Shown here one piece after another: positions 420 to 11,354 of a stretch of 64,000 nt of DNA. The notes beneath the pieces are model-generated. The model was not told where the DNA came from. It saw only the letters and a list, made by a program, of their open reading frames with translations, and made no database searches. Within the stretch, counting starts at the first letter, position 1. Each line of letters starts with the position of its first letter. This DNA is from Granulicatella elegans (lineage in GTDB: Bacteria > Bacillota > Bacilli > Lactobacillales > Aerococcaceae): NCBI RefSeq assembly GCF_020735385.1, contig NZ_CP085953.1, forward strand, positions 496,001 through 560,000, read 5' to 3'. A program made the translations under genes and the position numbers.

Positions 420-1400
420 TCACCAACTTTCTTGGAAAGCCAGTTGCTGAACTTTTTGGAGAGTTAAATGTTCTAAAAATACTTGAAGCGTATGAATGAC
501 AGGTTTCAAATCTTCCTTATTCAATAATTGGACCAATTCTCCCTCTTCTTTTAACGGAATCACAACCACAACCGTCGGTGTTCCTGCTAGAGATTTATGA
601 ATAAACGATCCATCCGTCCCTTTTTCTTGGACATTTGCCTTCACTTCGTATCCTAAACTTTGAGCAACTGTTTTAATTTCTTTCACTAACGAAACATTCG
701 GTAATAATGTCTTGTCAAAATAACGAATATAGACAGTTTGTTCTGCATAATCTCTAACTGGCGCTACATCTAATACAATCGAAACATCGGGTAATATCGT
801 ATTTGTAGCAGTAATAGCTCCTCTATATCCCACAATCGATTGAGCAATTCCCCCAATACTAAGTGTATACGGCAAAGAGGATATTGTTTTCATCAACTCA
901 TATGCAGCATAAACTCCCGCTCGATTAGATAGATTTTTACTTAAAATCATTTGTTCGGTTTCAATCACTGGAATTTCTAATACAAAAGTATCTCCTACTT
1001 GAACTCCAAACTCTTCCACTTCTTGCAGTGATTTAGCTCCTATATGAATCCAAAATTTCTCTTGTTTTTGTAGAATATAGCCATAGACTCGTTGATGATG
1101 TCGTGTTAACAGACAAACTCGTTGATGAAGAAAATCTTTTGGCAAAATATCTCCAATAGTCACAAAAGACAATAATCCATTTCCATGAATATCGTCAATC
1201 ACTCCTCCACATTCATCGATATTAGAACTAATCATCACTTTAAAAGGACTATTCTCCACTTGTCTCTCACCAAAAATCGAACCCAACTTATCTCTTTTCA
1301 AGTCTAAATTCAATTGTTTATATGCTTGAGACAAATATTGATGGACTTCATACTCATCTCCTGAAACTCCAGGTAGACTACATAAGGTACTTAACTCCAC
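420..1400 (-). CDS. M42-family protein with lost catalytic residues (pseudoenzyme)
   Basis: About 326 residues with M42 hallmarks in order: LPGVSGDE near the start, SSNIDECG where M42 has xAHxDExG, LSNRAG where the family has LDDRxG, IAQSIVGYRGA where the family has VQEEVGLRGA, and LDVAP. Known M42 catalysis needs the His of the first motif, the first Asp of DDR, the Glu-Glu pair and a C-terminal His. Here these read Asn, Ser, Gln-Ser, and a hydrophobic VVVIP stretch respectively; only two Asp ligands remain. It should therefore not hydrolyse peptides. I chose the GTG start at 1400 because AAGGA lies 10 bases upstream and it places the family start correctly; an ATG at 1457 would add residues overlapping the upstream gene. 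It sits between a GrdB-like gene and an M42 gene with an intact first motif, and may be a structural or regulatory subunit. Function is inferred. Confidence 0.8.
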   Translation of the reverse strand: MELSTLCSLPGVSGDEYEVHQYLSQAYKQLNLDLKRDKLGSIFGERQVENSPFKVMISSNIDECGGVIDDIHGNGLLSFVTIGDILPKDFLHQRVCLLTRHHQRVYGYILQKQEKFWIHIGAKSLQEVEEFGVQVGDTFVLEIPVIETEQMILSKNLSNRAGVYAAYELMKTISSLPYTLSIGGIAQSIVGYRGAITATNTILPDVSIVLDVAPVRDYAEQTVYIRYFDKTLLPNVSLVKEIKTVAQSLGYEVKANVQEKGTDGSFIHKSLAGTPTVVVVIPLKEEGELVQLLNKEDLKPVIHTLQVFLEHLTLQKVQQLAFQESW

Positions 1401-1933: not shown

Positions 1934-1987
1934 TCAAAAAAAGTGGGAATAGCGACAGAAATTTATTCATTTCTGTTGTCTTCCCAC
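1934..1987 (-). terminator. intra-operon terminator between PTS IIC and GrdB-like genes
   Basis: On the minus strand GTGGGAAGAC pairs with GTC..TTCCCAC around an inner CAGAAAT/ATTTCTG stem and is followed by seven T. It should reduce expression of the GrdB-like and M42 genes relative to the PTS genes. The ribosome site of the GrdB-like gene begins directly after the T tract, and no separate promoter is evident. Confidence 0.8.
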
Positions 1988-2024
1988 CTCCGCACATTCA
2001 ACTTTTCTACTCGTTTATTACTTT

Positions 2025-3380
2025 TTATAAATCATCAAAACTTAAATCATCCAATGACAATTCATCTAATTCATCGCTTAATGAATTAGAAGCTTGATGT
2101 TCTTCATGAAGATATTGTTTATCAATCACTCTAAAGAATGGATAGTAAATACACATTCCGATAATAATTAATACAATTTGGAATAAACCTGCTACGATAC
2201 TTCCTGTGGCTAACCAACCAGAGAAGAAGAATGGAGTTGTCCAAGGAAGTGCTGCTCCTGTAGTATATGGAATTAATCCTACAAGAGTTGCAACAGTCGC
2301 TAAAACAGTATTCACTAATGGTGTTAAAATAAATGGAATAACGATTAATGGATTTAATACAACTGGTAATCCAAAAATAATCATTTCGTTAATCCCAAAA
2401 ATACCAGGTACAATGGCTAAACGTCCTAATTTTTTCATACGTTCTGATTTTCCAAAGAATACCATTAAGAAAACAAGTGACAATGTACTACCGCCACCAC
2501 CAAAGTTTCCAAAGAAATCGCCGAATGGACTTGTAAAGATATTAGGAAGTGTTACTCCTTGTTTAAAGGCTTCTAAGTTTTCTGCTGTTAAAGCTAAATG
2601 AATTGGATTAAATACTGTATTCGTTACAGCAGGACCATTAATACCAAAGAACCAGAATAAAGTAGATAAGAACTGATAAATTGGTTCAAAAATTAAACTT
2701 TGTCCGAATCCCATTAATGGTGCTTGTAAAATTTTATAAATAAAGTTATGAGCATATTGATAATCTGTTACTGAGAACACTAAATACACTACAAAGAAGA
2801 AGAACATTGCAAACGCACTTGGAATTAATGCTGCAAATGATTGTGTTACAGCTGGCGGAACACCGTCAGGCATTTTAATAACCCAACCTTTGTTTTTAAC
2901 CGTTACAAAAATTTTTACAGAAATAATAGCTGTTAACATGGCTAAAAACATTCCTGCAGAACCTAAATGACCTAACGCAAATCCATTAAACACTTTACCA
3001 TTCGCTGCATTTACGAAATCAGAATGAACTTTTGGTGTAATAATAAGGAAACATACAAGAGCAACGGCTCCACCCGCAATTGGATCGCTTTCTAATTGAC
3101 GGGCATAAGCGTAACCAATCCCTACAGCTCCTAATAAACCTAAAACACTAAATGTTGAATCAATGACAGCATCCATTTTACTTGGCCAACCTTGACCAAA
3201 AAATTGAGCTAAGAAATCAACATAACCTGGTATTGGAAAGTTCGCAATGACAAGGAAAATAGAAGCCACAATAATTAATGGTGTGGATACTAAGAAACCA
3301 TCACGAATCGCAATTAAGACTTTATTATTGCCTAATTTTTCCGCGGAACTTCCCATTATTTTTTCTAACGAAGCAAACAT
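2025..3380 (-). CDS. PTS sugar transporter EIIC (lactose/cellobiose family)
   Basis: A 451-residue polytopic membrane protein of the CelB/EIIC lac family. Many hydrophobic segments are evident (for example LIIVASIFLVIANFP, AMFFFFVVYLVF, IVIPFILTPLVNTVLATV) along with the family-like loops GFGQSLIFEPIYQ and NGPAVTNTVFNPIHLA. It forms the sugar channel of a phosphotransferase system that phosphorylates a disaccharide or aryl-glycoside during uptake. The last 25 residues are unusually acidic with repeated Asp-Glu-Leu (SDELDELSLDDLSFDDL). It follows the IIB gene by 11 bases and is closed by a strong hairpin. No phospho-glycosidase is in the visible part of the operon, so the sugar is unknown. Confidence 0.92.
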   Translation of the reverse strand: MFASLEKIMGSSAEKLGNNKVLIAIRDGFLVSTPLIIVASIFLVIANFPIPGYVDFLAQFFGQGWPSKMDAVIDSTFSVLGLLGAVGIGYAYARQLESDPIAGGAVALVCFLIITPKVHSDFVNAANGKVFNGFALGHLGSAGMFLAMLTAIISVKIFVTVKNKGWVIKMPDGVPPAVTQSFAALIPSAFAMFFFFVVYLVFSVTDYQYAHNFIYKILQAPLMGFGQSLIFEPIYQFLSTLFWFFGINGPAVTNTVFNPIHLALTAENLEAFKQGVTLPNIFTSPFGDFFGNFGGGGSTLSLVFLMVFFGKSERMKKLGRLAIVPGIFGINEMIIFGLPVVLNPLIVIPFILTPLVNTVLATVATLVGLIPYTTGAALPWTTPFFFSGWLATGSIVAGLFQIVLIIIGMCIYYPFFRVIDKQYLHEEHQASNSLSDELDELSLDDLSFDDL

Positions 3381-3391
3381 AACAATTCCCC

Positions 3392-3712
3392 CTATTTTTT
3401 ATTTTTGATCAGTTGAATCGCGCGTTTTAATATACGTTCCCCATTGACATTCCCATAATCTTCCAAATTAATGACTTCTACAGGAATACCAGTAGGTTCG
3501 TATTTTTCACGAGTAGCATTAAATTTGAATTTCACTTGAGGCCCCAACAAAATGACATCCGGATGAAATTCTTGAACTACAGAATCTAGCTGAACATCAG
3601 AAAATGCTTTAACTTCTATTGGCAATTGATGTTGATTTGCAACTTCTTGCATCTTACTTGCCACTAAACTTGTAGACATTCCTGCATTACAAAATAAATA
3701 CACACGTTTCAT
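3392..3712 (-). CDS. PTS EIIB (lactose/cellobiose family)
   Basis: A 106-residue cytoplasmic domain that passes phosphate from IIA to the incoming sugar. The phosphorylated cysteine lies in CNAGMSTS near residue 8, the P-loop-like signature of the family, and VILLGPQVKF is also typical. It is a free-standing IIB rather than a fusion, between the IIA gene (18 bases upstream) and IIC (11 bases downstream). The sugar specificity cannot be read from the sequence. Confidence 0.93.
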   Translation of the reverse strand: MKRVYLFCNAGMSTSLVASKMQEVANQHQLPIEVKAFSDVQLDSVVQEFHPDVILLGPQVKFKFNATREKYEPTGIPVEVINLEDYGNVNGERILKRAIQLIKNKK

Positions 3713-3730: not shown

Positions 3731-4054
3731 TTATGATTTTTCAATTTTATCCAATCGTTGATATAATGCGAGCACTTCTTCACTTGTTACTTGTAAAATT
3801 TCTGCACTCATCAATTGATCTTCTGAATGTAATAAAAGCAACGAAAAAGGTACTTTATTTCCTGAACTATCTTTTTGTAATAATTCAAAATGTATTTCAT
3901 GTCCTTTTAATCGTTGCTGTTGACCTTCCTCAATCAGAGATTGAGCTTCTTCAAAATTTCCTTTTTTTGCGGCTGCCATTGCCTCCATAAAAGCAGAACG
4001 AGCCGCCCCTAATGCACTAATCATTTTAAAACAAACTAATTCTATTTCATTCAT
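3731..4054 (-). CDS. PTS EIIA (lactose/cellobiose family)
   Basis: A 107-residue all-helical IIA of the LacF/CelC type. The phosphorylated His is in LLLLHSEDQLM, and Asp/Glu-rich helices with EEAQSLIEEG fit the trimeric fold. The ATG at 4054 is preceded by GGAGAGGAGG at good distance; an upstream in-frame start at 4078 would put the ribosome site inside the gene. It is the first gene of the PTS operon, downstream of a -10 box and a cre-like site, so it is probably subject to CcpA repression. Confidence 0.92.
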   Translation of the reverse strand: MNEIELVCFKMISALGAARSAFMEAMAAAKKGNFEEAQSLIEEGQQQRLKGHEIHFELLQKDSSGNKVPFSLLLLHSEDQLMSAEILQVTSEEVLALYQRLDKIEKS

Positions 4055-4079
4055 GATTATTCCTCCTCTCCTAATCATT

Positions 4080-4170: not shown

Positions 4171-4228
4171 ACAAAAAAAAACAAATAAACTCTCAAAACA
4201 ATAGAGCTTCTATTATTTTGAGAGTTTA
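4171..4228 (-). terminator. terminator of the small membrane-protein gene
   Basis: TAAACTCTCAAAA (4186-4198) pairs perfectly with TTTTGAGAGTTTA (4216-4228); on the minus strand a run rich in T follows. It begins 3 bases beyond the stop codon at 4231. Confidence 0.9.
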
Positions 4229-4230
4229 CT

Positions 4231-4668
4231 TTAACTAACTTTCTTTTCATAAGGAGTCTTCACAAATTGAATCGCTTTTAAAATCGCCATAATTGGACTT
4301 ACCAATACTAATACATATTGCATCATCCCAAGCAGTCGTATCACTGAAATCATTGGAATAGACAAATGAAGAATCCATCCTAAACTTAATACTTCTGCCA
4401 TATAACGATACGACATAAAAAAGATTGGTGTTAACATAATCGCAAACATCATTTCTCCTAATACCATTAATGGAGAATTTTTGCACATTTTCACATTCCG
4501 TTGTTCGGCAATCATAATCAATAAGGCCATTAGAAAAACAAATAAAATGACTTCACCATCTTTAGCTAATAATGAACTTCCTTGATTCATGGCATATACT
4601 GTTAGGACACTCGTTAGTACTATCATTCCCATGATGAACTTCCAATAATAGGTACTAAACTTTTTCAT
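4231..4668 (-). CDS. small integral membrane protein, unknown
   Basis: A 145-residue protein with about four hydrophobic segments (FIMGMIVLTSVLTVYAM, VILFVFLMALLIMIA, LMVLGEMMFAIMLTPIFFM, LLGMMQYVLVLVSPIMAIL) and short charged loops. I do not recognise a family. The ATG at 4668 has AAAGGAG 8 bases upstream; a GTG one codon earlier is less likely. It appears monocistronic, followed by its own terminator, between the tRNA cluster and the PTS operon. Confidence 0.75.
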   Translation of the reverse strand: MKKFSTYYWKFIMGMIVLTSVLTVYAMNQGSSLLAKDGEVILFVFLMALLIMIAEQRNVKMCKNSPLMVLGEMMFAIMLTPIFFMSYRYMAEVLSLGWILHLSIPMISVIRLLGMMQYVLVLVSPIMAILKAIQFVKTPYEKKVS

Positions 4669-4770
4669 CACCTTTGCTCCTTTCTCTAACTCCCACCTTT
4701 ACGACTATCATCACTGACTAGGTATTTAAAATCAAGAGTATCTGAGAAAATTTAATAAAAATTTAGGAAA

Positions 4771-4800: not shown

Positions 4801-4872
4801 CTGGGGTAGCTGGATTCGAACCAACGAATGACGGAGTCAAAGTCCGTTGCCTTACCGCTTGGCTATACCCCA
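4801..4872 (-). tRNA. tRNA-Gln (TTG)
   Basis: 72 bases; acceptor arms TGGGGTA/TACCCCA, anticodon loop CTTTGAC giving TTG, T arm with GGTTCGAATCC, discriminator G. CCA is not encoded. Cotranscribed with tRNA-Tyr four bases upstream. Confidence 0.96.
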
Positions 4873-4876
4873 ATGG

Positions 4877-4957
4877 TGGAGGGGGGCAGATTCGAACTGC
4901 CGAACCCTAAGGAGCGGATTTACAGTCCGCCGCGTTTAGCCACTTCGCTACCCCTCC
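4877..4957 (-). tRNA. tRNA-Tyr (GTA)
   Basis: 81 bases with a long variable arm, as expected for bacterial tRNA-Tyr. Acceptor GGAGGGG/CCCCTCC, anticodon loop CTGTAAA giving GTA, T loop GTTCGAATC, discriminator A. Confidence 0.96.
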
Positions 4958-6852: not shown

Positions 6853-6928
6853 ATTCTACTCCTCTACTTTCATTTATTCCGGTATCCATCCTACCGTATT
6901 TTTCTCAAAAATACTACTAAAACTATCA

Positions 6929-6988
6929 TTTCGATTATAGTCGAAACTGAATTGATTTTTCTCCCTTTTATCGACTATACTCGAAACA
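6929..6988 (-). promoter_or_regulatory. paired operator-like boxes over the transporter promoter
   Basis: Boxes at 6931-6947 (TCGATTATAGTCGAAAC) and 6971-6987 (TCGACTATACTCGAAAC) agree at 15 of 17 positions and start 40 bp apart, about four helical turns. The first is a dyad, TTTCGA-6-TCGAAA, and contains the minus-strand TATAAT (6934-6939) of the likely promoter of the transporter/chorismate mutase operon. This suits a dimeric regulator bound twice on one DNA face. The regulator is not identified. Confidence 0.6.
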
Positions 6989-7027
6989 TCTCGTTTGATG
7001 ACAATTCACCAACTATCTTTAGAACAT

Positions 7028-7062
7028 CAAAAAAACGATAGAGACTTTCCCTCTACCGTTTC
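7028..7062 (-). terminator. terminator after the DUF2087 gene
   Basis: AAACGGTAGAG and CTCTATCGTTT pair on the minus strand with one mismatch and are followed by seven T. Confidence 0.85.
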
Positions 7063-7074
7063 CTGTTCTTGTAT

Positions 7075-7350
7075 TTAATTATCTAATACAACCTCTGGAT
7101 TTAGTTGATAATGTTGACCATAATTATCTCTAATGATAAATTTATAATCCACTAGATAACGGCGCATTGTAGCAAAATCATCATATAGTTCCTTAATTTT
7201 TTCATTCAATTCTTTTTCAGTATAAGTCTCTGAATGACTCTTTAAATGCGCATAAATAAATTCAAAAATCTCTATTTTATTTTTCTGTTTTTTAGGAAGA
7301 ACAATAATCTTTCCATCCTTCATAAATCTTGAAATATTTTCTTCTTTCAT
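7075..7350 (-). CDS. DUF2087 domain protein, probable nucleic-acid-binding regulator
   Basis: A 91-residue protein matching the DUF2087 pattern: ISRFMKDGKIIVLPKKQKNKIEIFEFI, then YTEKELNEKIKELYDDFATMRRYLVDYKFIIRD. The family is often found as a C-terminal domain of ArsR-like regulators or alone; its function is unknown, but the helix pattern and YTEKELNE...RRYLVD resemble a winged helix. The ATG at 7350 has AGAGGTG 7 bases upstream; an upstream ATG at 7371 lacks a site. Its gene starts about 380 bases upstream of the anion-transporter start, on the same strand. It could be the regulator of the paired boxes, which is speculation. Confidence 0.72.
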   Translation of the reverse strand: MKEENISRFMKDGKIIVLPKKQKNKIEIFEFIYAHLKSHSETYTEKELNEKIKELYDDFATMRRYLVDYKFIIRDNYGQHYQLNPEVVLDN

Positions 7351-7458
7351 ATGAAAACACCTCTTATTCATATTTTTGTAAAGTTTATACTACATACAGA
7401 AAAAAGGCAAATCTTTATAAGAAACTTCTTCGATCTACAATACCAAGAATTTTCTCCA

Positions 7459-7499
7459 CAAAAAACTTGTTAGAAACGGTAGTTATTTCTAACAAGTTT
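7459..7499 (-). terminator. terminator after ribU
   Basis: AAACTTGTTAGAAA (7463-7476) pairs perfectly with TTTCTAACAAGTTT (7486-7499), followed on the minus strand by T. Confidence 0.92.
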
Positions 7500-7520
7500 G
7501 GGGTAGTAGGTTTGTTAAAT

Positions 7521-8141
7521 TTATTGTTTTTCTAGTTTTAATACTTTTTCAACTTTTTTATAAAGCATTAACGATAGTACACTGCTTAAACCGAATTTTA
7601 ATACATTAAATGGTAATAAAGCAAATAGCATTAATGACCATAGATTTGTCACAAATGGATTTGTAGTAGCTGCAAGGGCAACAATTTTATCAATTGGGAA
7701 ATGCATCGCTGTTGCATATAATGGGAACATTACAAAATAATTCGCTGTTAATAAGACTACTGTTGCAACAGTTGTACCAATCACTAAACTTGTAATCGCC
7801 CCTTTGAATGTACGGTTGTATTTATAATAAAATACCGCTGGTAACATGAAACTTAAACTTCCAATTAAGTTAACTGTTTCGCCAATCCCAAATGTTGTTG
7901 TTCCATTTAAAACAAAGTTCAATGCAACTTTTACAATCGCAATATACGCACCATATAATGGTCCTAATAAATAACCTCCTAAAATAACAGGCAATTCAGA
8001 AAAATCCATTTTAACAAATGGTGGAATAAATGGCAGACTAAATTCTAATAACATTAAAATCGCACTTAACGCACCGAACAGTCCTACTAAAATGATTTGT
8101 TTTGTCGCATAACGTGACACTGTTTTTGCATTTGTACTCAC
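7521..8141 (-). CDS. ribU: riboflavin ECF transporter S component RibU
   Basis: 206 residues with six hydrophobic segments. The N-terminal IILVGLFGALSAILMLLEF and the following PFIPPFVKMDFSELPVILGGYLLGP are typical RibU sequence. It binds riboflavin at the outer face and works with a shared ECF energising module (EcfA, EcfA', EcfT) encoded elsewhere. An FMN riboswitch lies about 170 bases upstream, so the gene should be shut off when FMN is plentiful. Monocistronic, with a strong terminator. Confidence 0.95.
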   Translation of the reverse strand: MSTNAKTVSRYATKQIILVGLFGALSAILMLLEFSLPFIPPFVKMDFSELPVILGGYLLGPLYGAYIAIVKVALNFVLNGTTTFGIGETVNLIGSLSFMLPAVFYYKYNRTFKGAITSLVIGTTVATVVLLTANYFVMFPLYATAMHFPIDKIVALAATTNPFVTNLWSLMLFALLPFNVLKFGLSSVLSLMLYKKVEKVLKLEKQ

Positions 8142-8534: not shown

Positions 8535-11354
8535 TTATTTCAATACTTTCCTCAAATATTGCCCTGTAAAGCTTCCTTCAACTTGAGCCACTTCTTCAGG
8601 TGTTCCAGTAGCGACAACTAGTCCTCCGCCACTACCACCTTCTGGTCCCATATCAATAATATAGTCAGCCGTTTTAATTACATCTAAATTATGCTCAATC
8701 ACTAAAACTGTATTTCCTGATTCTACTAAACGATTCAATACTTCTAATAATCGTGCAATATCATCTGTATGAAGCCCTGTCGTTGGCTCATCTAATACAT
8801 AAAAGGTATTGCCTGTAGACACTCGTTGCAGTTCACTCGCTAATTTCATTCGTTGTGCTTCTCCACCTGATAAAGTTGTAGCAGATTGCCCTAAAGTCAC
8901 ATAGCCTAAACCAACATCTTTAATCGTTTGAAGTTTTCGCTTAATTTTTGGCACAGCTTGGAAAAATTCTACCGCATCATCTACCGTCATTTCTAATACT
9001 TCAGCGATGCTTTTTCCTTTATATTTGACTTCTAATGTTTCTGAATTATAACGACTACCATGGCAAATTTCGCACGGAACGTATACATCAGGTAGGAAAT
9101 GCATTTCAATTTTTAAAATACCGTCTCCCTTACAGGCTTCACATCGTCCACCTTTGACATTAAAACTAAAACGTCCTTTTTTATAGCCACGTAATTTTGC
9201 TTCATTTGTCGTTGCAAATAAATCACGAATATCATCAAATACACTTGTGTAAGTCGCTGGATTACTTCTTGGAGTACGACCAATTGGACTTTGATCGATA
9301 TCAATAATTTTATCTAAACCTTCATATCCTTCAATTGATTTAAAGGCCCCAGGTTTTTCTTTTGATTTTGAAATTTCTCTTGCTAAAGCTTTTTTCAATA
9401 CTCCATTGACAAGAGAACTCTTTCCAGAACCTGAAACTCCTGTAACTGCTACTAATCTTCCTAAAGGAATATCCACATTAACAGATTTTAAGTTATTTTC
9501 ACTTGCTCCTTTTAAGTGAATCCACCCTTTATCTTCTGTTCTACGTTCAGTTGGAACGGCAATTGATTTTTTCCCTGATAAATATTGACCCGTTAATGAG
9601 TTTGGATTTTTTTCCACTTCTTTTGGCGTTCCAGCAGCAATAATTTGCCCACCAAATTCCCCTGCTCCTGGTCCGATATCAATTAAGTAATCCGCTGCTC
9701 TCATGGTGTCTTCATCATGTTCGACTACAATTAATGTATTTCCTAAATCACGCATATTTTGTAACGATTGAATTAATCGATCATTATCTCTTTGATGCAA
9801 TCCAATTGATGGCTCATCTAAAATATATAAAACTCCTGATAAATTCGATCCAATTTGAGTCGCTAAACGAATCCGTTGCGCTTCTCCCCCTGATAATGTT
9901 CCTGCTGCACGGCTAAGGTTTAAATATTGCAAACCAACATTTTTCAAAAATGTTAAACGAGATTGCACTTCTTTTAAAATAGGAGCGGCAATTTGTTCAT
10001 CTTGTGGAGATAAGGTTAACTCTTTGAAAAATTCAATTTCTTCATCAACGGATAATTCTAACACTTCACTAATATGTTTATGATTCACTTTTACTGCTAA
10101 TGCCTGTTCATTTAAACGGTGTCCATGACAAGCTTTACACGATAATTCTGTCATATATTGACGCATTTGTTCTCTTGTATACTCGCTATTCGTCTCATGG
10201 TAACGGCGTTTCACATTGACAATGACTCCTTCAAAAGGTACATCCACATCTCGAACACCACCAAATTCATTTTCATAATGGAAATGGAAAGTGGCGTCTC
10301 CAGAACCATATAACACTAGATTTTTCTGAGATTGTGTTAATGTTTCAAAAGGTAAATCCATTGGAACTTTAAACTGCTCACAAAATTGACGCAGCATTTC
10401 TGGATAATAGTTCGAACTAATCGGATTCCAAGGCGCTAATGCTCCTTCATTTAAAGTTTTCTCTTTATCTGGAATAACTAAGTCGATATCCACTTCTAAT
10501 TTCATTCCTAATCCATCACATTTCGGACAAGCTCCAAAAGGTGCATTAAATGAAAATAGACGTGGCTCTAATTCTCCAATAGTAAATCCACAATGAGGAC
10601 AAGCATAATGCTCACTAAACAAGATTTCTTCTTGCCCAATGACATCGACAATCGCATACCCTTCTGCTAAACGAAGCGCTGCTTCTAATGAATCGAACAA
10701 TCTTGAACGGCTCTTATCGGACACAATAATACGGTCAACAACAATTTCAATCGAATGCTTTTTATTTTTTTCTAATGAAATTTCATCCGTTGTTTCCATC
10801 ATTTCGCCATCTACTCGAATACGAATATAGCCGTCTTTTTGAATATTTTCGAAAACTTTTTTATGTTCTCCTTTTTTCCCTTTTACAATTGGAGCTAAAA
10901 TTTGAATTTTTGTTCTTTCTGGCAATTCCATTACACGATTCACCATTTGTTCAATCGACTGACTTTCAATTAAAGTTCCGTCATTTGGACAGTAAGGTTT
11001 TCCTACACGTGCATATAGCAATCTCAAGTAATCATTAATTTCCGTTACTGTTCCCACTGTTGAACGAGGGTTACGAGAAGTTGTTTTTTGGTCAATCGCA
11101 ATTGCCGGACTTAATCCATCAATACTATCGACATCTGGTTTATCCATTTGCCCTAAAAATTGTCGTGCATAGGCTGATAAACTCTCTACATATCTTCTTT
11201 GTCCTTCTGCATATAATGTATCAAATGCTAGTGAGCTCTTCCCTGAACCAGATAATCCTGTAATTACTACTAATTGATCTCTTGGAATTGTTACATCGAT
11301 ATTTTTTAAATTATGGGAGCGTGCTCCACGAACGATAATCTGATCTTTCGCCAT
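8535..11354 (-). CDS. uvrA: excinuclease ABC subunit UvrA
   Basis: 939 residues, full length. Two ABC ATPase halves, with Walker [10 protein letters not shown] near residue 32 and GVSGSGKSS near residue 640, signature LSGGEAQR twice, and two CxxC zinc modules (CPHCG...[12 protein letters not shown]...CEIC). UvrA dimers scan DNA, recognise bulky lesions and load UvrB. uvrB is not adjacent here. The promoter carries a LexA box, so SOS induction is expected. Confidence 0.98.

Follow-up and report, generated by a model that had tools for sequence, protein, structure and literature searches.

The M42 aminopeptidases are textbook self-compartmentalised peptidases that assemble into large homo-oligomeric particles, and the genes of two of them, FrvX and YpdE, sit in PTS operons, as does the gene described here. 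In other oligomeric peptidases, active subunits are paired with inactive ones, as in ClpP/ClpR and heterosubunit M16B. Two reports describe mixed assemblies of M42 proteins, namely the PhTET2-PhTET3 heterododecamer (PMC4220976) and YtoP-YsdC (PMC10090944). The active-site metals help M42 dodecamers hold together (PMC4745047). In PhTET2, a loop histidine (H123) is needed for a normal KM and helps hold the substrate, and it may act on the active site of the neighbouring subunit (PMC8993905). M42 is absent from a review of metallopeptidase pseudoenzymes (PMC11266112), which cites the heterosubunit M16B paper, and our literature search, outside which most subscription papers fell, returned no description of an M42 pseudopeptidase. 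Judged by the literature searched, a dead subunit conserved in M42 would be without precedent.

We identified a candidate for such a subunit near one end of the window, by which we mean the whole stretch of 64,000 nucleotides that was analysed (G000:C1:496001-560000, part of a Granulicatella genome). The gene, here called pseudo-M42, occupies positions 420 to 1400 of the minus strand and has 326 codons. Its GTG start lies at 1400, with AGAAAGGAAG upstream, its stop codon is at 420-422, and the frame between them is intact. The longest open reading frame would begin at a TTG at 1457; we prefer the shorter GTG start because the TTG start overlaps the GrdB-like gene and the orthologues favour the shorter start. 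The protein matches PF05343 (Pfam) over its length with 133 bits, against a gathering cut-off of 23.2. Its AlphaFold2 model (pLDDT 83, pTM 0.82) has an M42 fold with a PDZ-like dimer domain, and structure alignment of the model with M42 structures, including TET particles, gave Z scores of about 34-36 (for 5ds0_L, Z 35.7 and rmsd 2.4 with 319 residues aligned). The protein is an M42 by descent and fold, yet it fails the defining criteria of an active M42 peptidase. A scan of genome contigs returned G. elegans ATCC 700633 alone, with a protein identity of 92%. The start of an adjacent, intact M42 aminopeptidase gene is found at 1 to 415 on the minus strand and runs past the window edge (whole gene, L005:9324-10415). 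This partner served as the reference for residue comparisons, and residue numbers are those of the partner protein of G000.

Alignment to the partner places an Asn codon (1221-1223) where the metal-ligand His of HxDE (H63) should be, a Ser codon (927-929) at the bridging Asp (D179), Ser-Ile codons (834-839) at the Glu-Glu pair comprising the catalytic base and a metal ligand (E211/E212), and a Gly codon (540-542) aligned with the C-terminal metal-ligand His (H319), all on the minus strand. D65, the Asp of HxD, and D234 are retained. Among the five M42 metal ligands (H, D, E, D, H), the second Asp alone remains in the window protein, and the catalytic pair has kept its Asp and exchanged its Glu for Ser. 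The Pro-Pro-His-type chamber loop (H118) is also deleted, in a segment missing throughout the Granulicatella lineage. The whole window protein was inspected for a His or acidic residue at a shifted position able to replace the lost ligands, and none was found; its histidines occur only at ORF positions 39, 91, 111, 120, 121, 138, 287, 322 and 330. We rejected shifted ligands for this reason, and chance or alignment error on the strength of 41 intact M42 controls and the same losses in 16 relatives. The best explanation of these residues is that the subunit would be unable to hold a dinuclear metal centre or to catalyse, and we consider it almost certain that the protein is conserved and has no catalytic activity as an M42 peptidase.

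A sequence-only reading of this DNA had already described an M42 pattern kept in an open frame directly before an intact M42 gene, and the frame, the family match, the predicted fold and the partner, which keeps all seven metal-ligand and catalytic positions, bear it out, as does the alignment with M42 structures that it had proposed. The changes of the HxDE His to Asn and of the bridging Asp to Ser, and the absence of the C-terminal His, were read correctly. Loss of the EE motif also stands, but the replacement is SI and not the "QS" reported, the Q aligning with a conserved Gln that precedes EE. Ligands at shifted positions had been named as the finding that would overturn these losses; none was found, so the losses stand.

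Searching first with the GrdB-like gene and next with a pseudo-M42 family profile, we found members in three genomes of the window's own family (f1), eight of f3, two of f8 and four of f9. The profile separated members, at 319 bits or more, from ordinary M42, at 274 or fewer. A sample of 299 genomes across the phylum contained no pseudo-M42 besides that of the window's own genome, and a plasmid search returned just ordinary M42 at 25-31% identity; one aminopeptidase from the plasmid search adjoins a fructose-like PTS. For residue comparisons we used 16 near-full-length pseudo-M42 proteins from four families of one order, 17 adjacent partners and 24 other M42 proteins. A phylogenetic tree contained the pseudo-M42 proteins as one clade (98/92) and the partners as another (97/91), with nearly equal branching order; the placement of G167, with its long branches, is unsure.

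The gene order GrdB-like, pseudo-M42, M42 is constant in every member. In the GrdB-like operons that were fetched, some on contigs that end near the operon, pseudo-M42 and M42 are both present or both absent. Among 103 genomes of f3, the operon-type M42 (at least 590 bits; next best 395) occurs in exactly the eight genomes that have pseudo-M42; these eight span five genera, and common descent lowers the weight of the count. Because the pair is inseparable across several lactic-acid families, the inactive gene most likely encodes a functional partner and is not a remnant. The evolutionary distances of pseudo-M42 correlate with those of M42 (r 0.97) and with those of IIC (r 0.98), and since IIC correlates equally well, the correlation shows shared inheritance and not contact. 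Two loci, L081 (G052, of the same genus as the window) and L083 (G309), have this operon type without the M42 pair, the asparaginase-like gene lying directly after the GrdB-like gene. It is as if the M42 pair were gained or lost as a cassette in such operons.

The best reading overall is probably that of a pseudopeptidase subunit kept as the obligate partner in a mixed M42 particle. We infer this hetero-assembly, and consider it reasonably likely that pseudo-M42 is a physical partner of the adjacent M42. Contacts at either the PDZ-like dimer domain or the dimer-dimer interface would join the two proteins in one hetero-oligomeric particle. Within it, the dead subunit would leave fewer active sites and, by lacking the Pro-Pro-His loop, would open the chamber to bulky substrates. 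A mixed shell of this kind, as the sequence-only reading proposed, is plausible and has precedents. Pseudo-M42 retains the dimer domain and, in 16/16 proteins, the residue equivalent to R217 at the PhTET2 dimer-dimer interface. At two further PhTET2 interface positions its residues are family-specific, with Q or I at R220 and N at F224 (the latter in 16/16); PhTET2 interface mutants are listed in PMC4220976. A tethered AlphaFold2 model of one pseudo-M42 and one M42 chain, taken from an in-frame readthrough in G322 and run with six paired rows and without a control, gave a low-confidence arrangement (pTM 0.49). Because active-site metals stabilise M42 dodecamers, a metal-less subunit might fail to enter the dodecamer and stay outside it.

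Pseudo-M42 could also form a separate binding or regulatory homo-oligomer outside its partner's particle, its M42 pocket binding a peptide or glycopeptide without chemistry. The former pocket does have conserved residues of its own (NWNGR, EQVG, a W in the N298 column and an N in the Y317 column), and pseudo-M42 always follows the GrdB-like gene. However, pseudo-M42 was found without an intact M42 in 0/16 members and 0/103 genomes, and GrdB-like operons often lack both genes of the pair. We regard such a separate protein, whether a scavenger, a sensor or a partner of the PTS or of the GrdB-like protein, as rather unlikely.

The mixed particle must also be weighed against a subfamily with changed chemistry, and here the pattern of losses across members is informative. 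The 17 partners and the 24 other M42 proteins without exception (41/41) keep the seven metal-ligand and catalytic residues, and 39 of these 41 controls also have the loop His, which two of the 24 other M42 proteins lack. No pseudo-M42 protein (0/16) has the loop His, the C-terminal His or the second Glu, the last being replaced by Q, I or L, and the bridging Asp is lost in 15/16, the exception being G799. The HxD His is retained in 11/16, the catalytic Glu in 11/16 and the second Asp in 15/16. Loss of active-site residues is therefore a matter of degree within the family, since 11 of the 16 members keep the first two of these, and it has gone furthest in the window's lineage. The surviving residues, together with the bridging Asp of G799, would suit a family in which many members are perhaps mononuclear hydrolases and the window's lineage is an extreme. 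Because most members keep the trio of HxD His, second Asp and catalytic Glu, they may have weak mononuclear activity. As an account of the whole family, changed chemistry is improbable, given that the window's lineage lacks both the HxD His and the catalytic Glu and that no member retains the loop His (PhTET2 H123, PMC8993905), the C-terminal His or the second Glu.

The dN/dS of pseudo-M42 is 0.149 between G000 and G345, and 0.073 and 0.058 in two other pairs, close to that of other operon genes; the partner M42 values in the matching pairs are slightly lower (0.106, 0.052 and 0.023). In G. elegans (G345), pseudo-M42 is interrupted in frame by a TAA at codon 126 (L080:6030-6032), and its partner is intact. 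The TAA is directly followed by GTG, so that a restart is possible. In G808 (L217), the pseudo-M42 and asparaginase-like genes are both split (9913-10880 and 6894-7963), which suggests operon decay or sequence errors; the G345 stop and the G808 break together may be sequence errors or recent losses. Because these two copies are broken, the pseudo-M42 gene may be dispensable in places and not indispensable everywhere. Decay after duplication, to which the two broken copies and the faster evolution of pseudo-M42 (median distance 1.06, versus 0.59 in the partner) might point, is nevertheless very improbable and already largely refuted for the family, given dN/dS of 0.06-0.15 in three pairs, open frames in 15/17 copies, losses that recur at identical columns across four families of the order, and 35 invariant columns among nine sequences.

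Decaying orthologues had been put forward beforehand as evidence against a conserved subunit; the G. elegans stop and the broken G808 copy answer to that description weakly, while the dN/dS values and the single origin of the family speak against it. The proposed test of whether Lactobacillales orthologues show the window's substitutions found the second Glu, the C-terminal His and, with one exception, the bridging Asp lost throughout, and the HxD His and catalytic Glu lost in some members. The central proposal, a conserved inactive partner of the next gene, gains support from the single-origin family, purifying selection, constant gene order and perfect co-occurrence.

The window operon lies on the minus strand and encodes, in order, PTS EIIA (3731-4078), EIIB (3392-3712) and EIIC of the lactose/cellobiose family (2025-3380), then a GrdB-like protein without selenocysteine (1417-1926; NF041545, 208.8 bits against a cut-off of 175), pseudo-M42, M42, Asparaginase_2, a Sapep/PepV-like M20, CutC and DUF7916. 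The GrdB-like gene, always directly upstream of the pair, corresponds to the N-terminal part of GrdB and is a standing member of PTS/asparaginase operons in many Lactobacillales (L020-L079). CutC and DUF7916 (L005:5572-7231) end the operon in Granulicatella and G167. Between the IIC and GrdB-like genes, an attenuator-like hairpin followed by a U run (1936-1989, minus strand) is absent from the consensus scan; the lower operon genes may be expressed by read-through past it. A different sequence at the same site in L082 (G167) may, by eye, form a hairpin too. Upstream of the operon are two tRNA genes (4801-4957, minus strand), and near these are a long hairpin (4185-4229) and an ORF of 146 aa (4231-4671) for which Pfam gave no match.

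The cellobiose-type PTS, the glycosylasparaginase-like hydrolase and the PepV-like dipeptidase encoded in this operon point to N-glycopeptide catabolism. The Asparaginase_2 protein, a glycosylasparaginase-like Ntn hydrolase, retains the HDT motif. Glycosylasparaginases require free alpha-amino and alpha-carboxyl groups (PMC6960285), a requirement that an M42 aminopeptidase and a dipeptidase fit. On the basis of these neighbours, we lean slightly towards a glycopeptide or glycoasparagine role. The PTS would import N-glycopeptides, the M42 particle and the PepV-like dipeptidase would trim them to GlcNAc-Asn, and the glycosylasparaginase-like enzyme would split the latter; as a speculation, a dead subunit without the chamber loop could leave room for the glycan. 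More tentatively, the pair may be an obligate hetero-oligomeric M42 machine, a glycopeptide-specific TET-like particle whose dead subunit reshapes the chamber so that glycopeptides are trimmed before glycosylasparaginase acts. If this is true, the known lactic-acid bacterial route for host N-glycan asparagine would extend from single glyco-amino acids to glycopeptides. The pair is also a natural system in which to examine how the metals and the chamber loop contribute to particle assembly and substrate selection.

In L. casei, AsnA2 is linked to PepV, and there the alf-2 cluster (alfR2, pepV, asnA2; PMC6960285) resembles this operon in bringing glycosylasparaginase-type and PepV-like genes together. 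A GntR-type gene is a further alf-2-like feature of several related operons studied here. The alf-2 cluster differs in having an MFS permease and a fucosidase instead of a PTS, and its published gene list has neither the M42 pair nor the GrdB-like gene. Pseudo-M42 resembles the M42 glutamyl/TET aminopeptidases (PhTET1-3, PepA, YpdE, FrvX, YsdC) in fold over residues 17-343, in domain order and in PF05343, and differs in having lost its Pro-Pro-His loop and most of the residues for metal binding and catalysis. PhTET2-PhTET3 (PMC4220976) and the YtoP-YsdC assembly of B. subtilis (PMC10090944, PDB 9a5r) each combine two paralogous M42 subunits. Both PhTET subunits are active, and for neither assembly do the accessible portions describe a dead subunit or an obligate neighbouring gene pair. 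ClpP/ClpR and heterosubunit M16B belong to other peptidase families but share with this locus a dead paralogue kept as a subunit, and the best reading by analogy is that pseudo-M42 would work like the dead subunits of these oligomeric peptidases.
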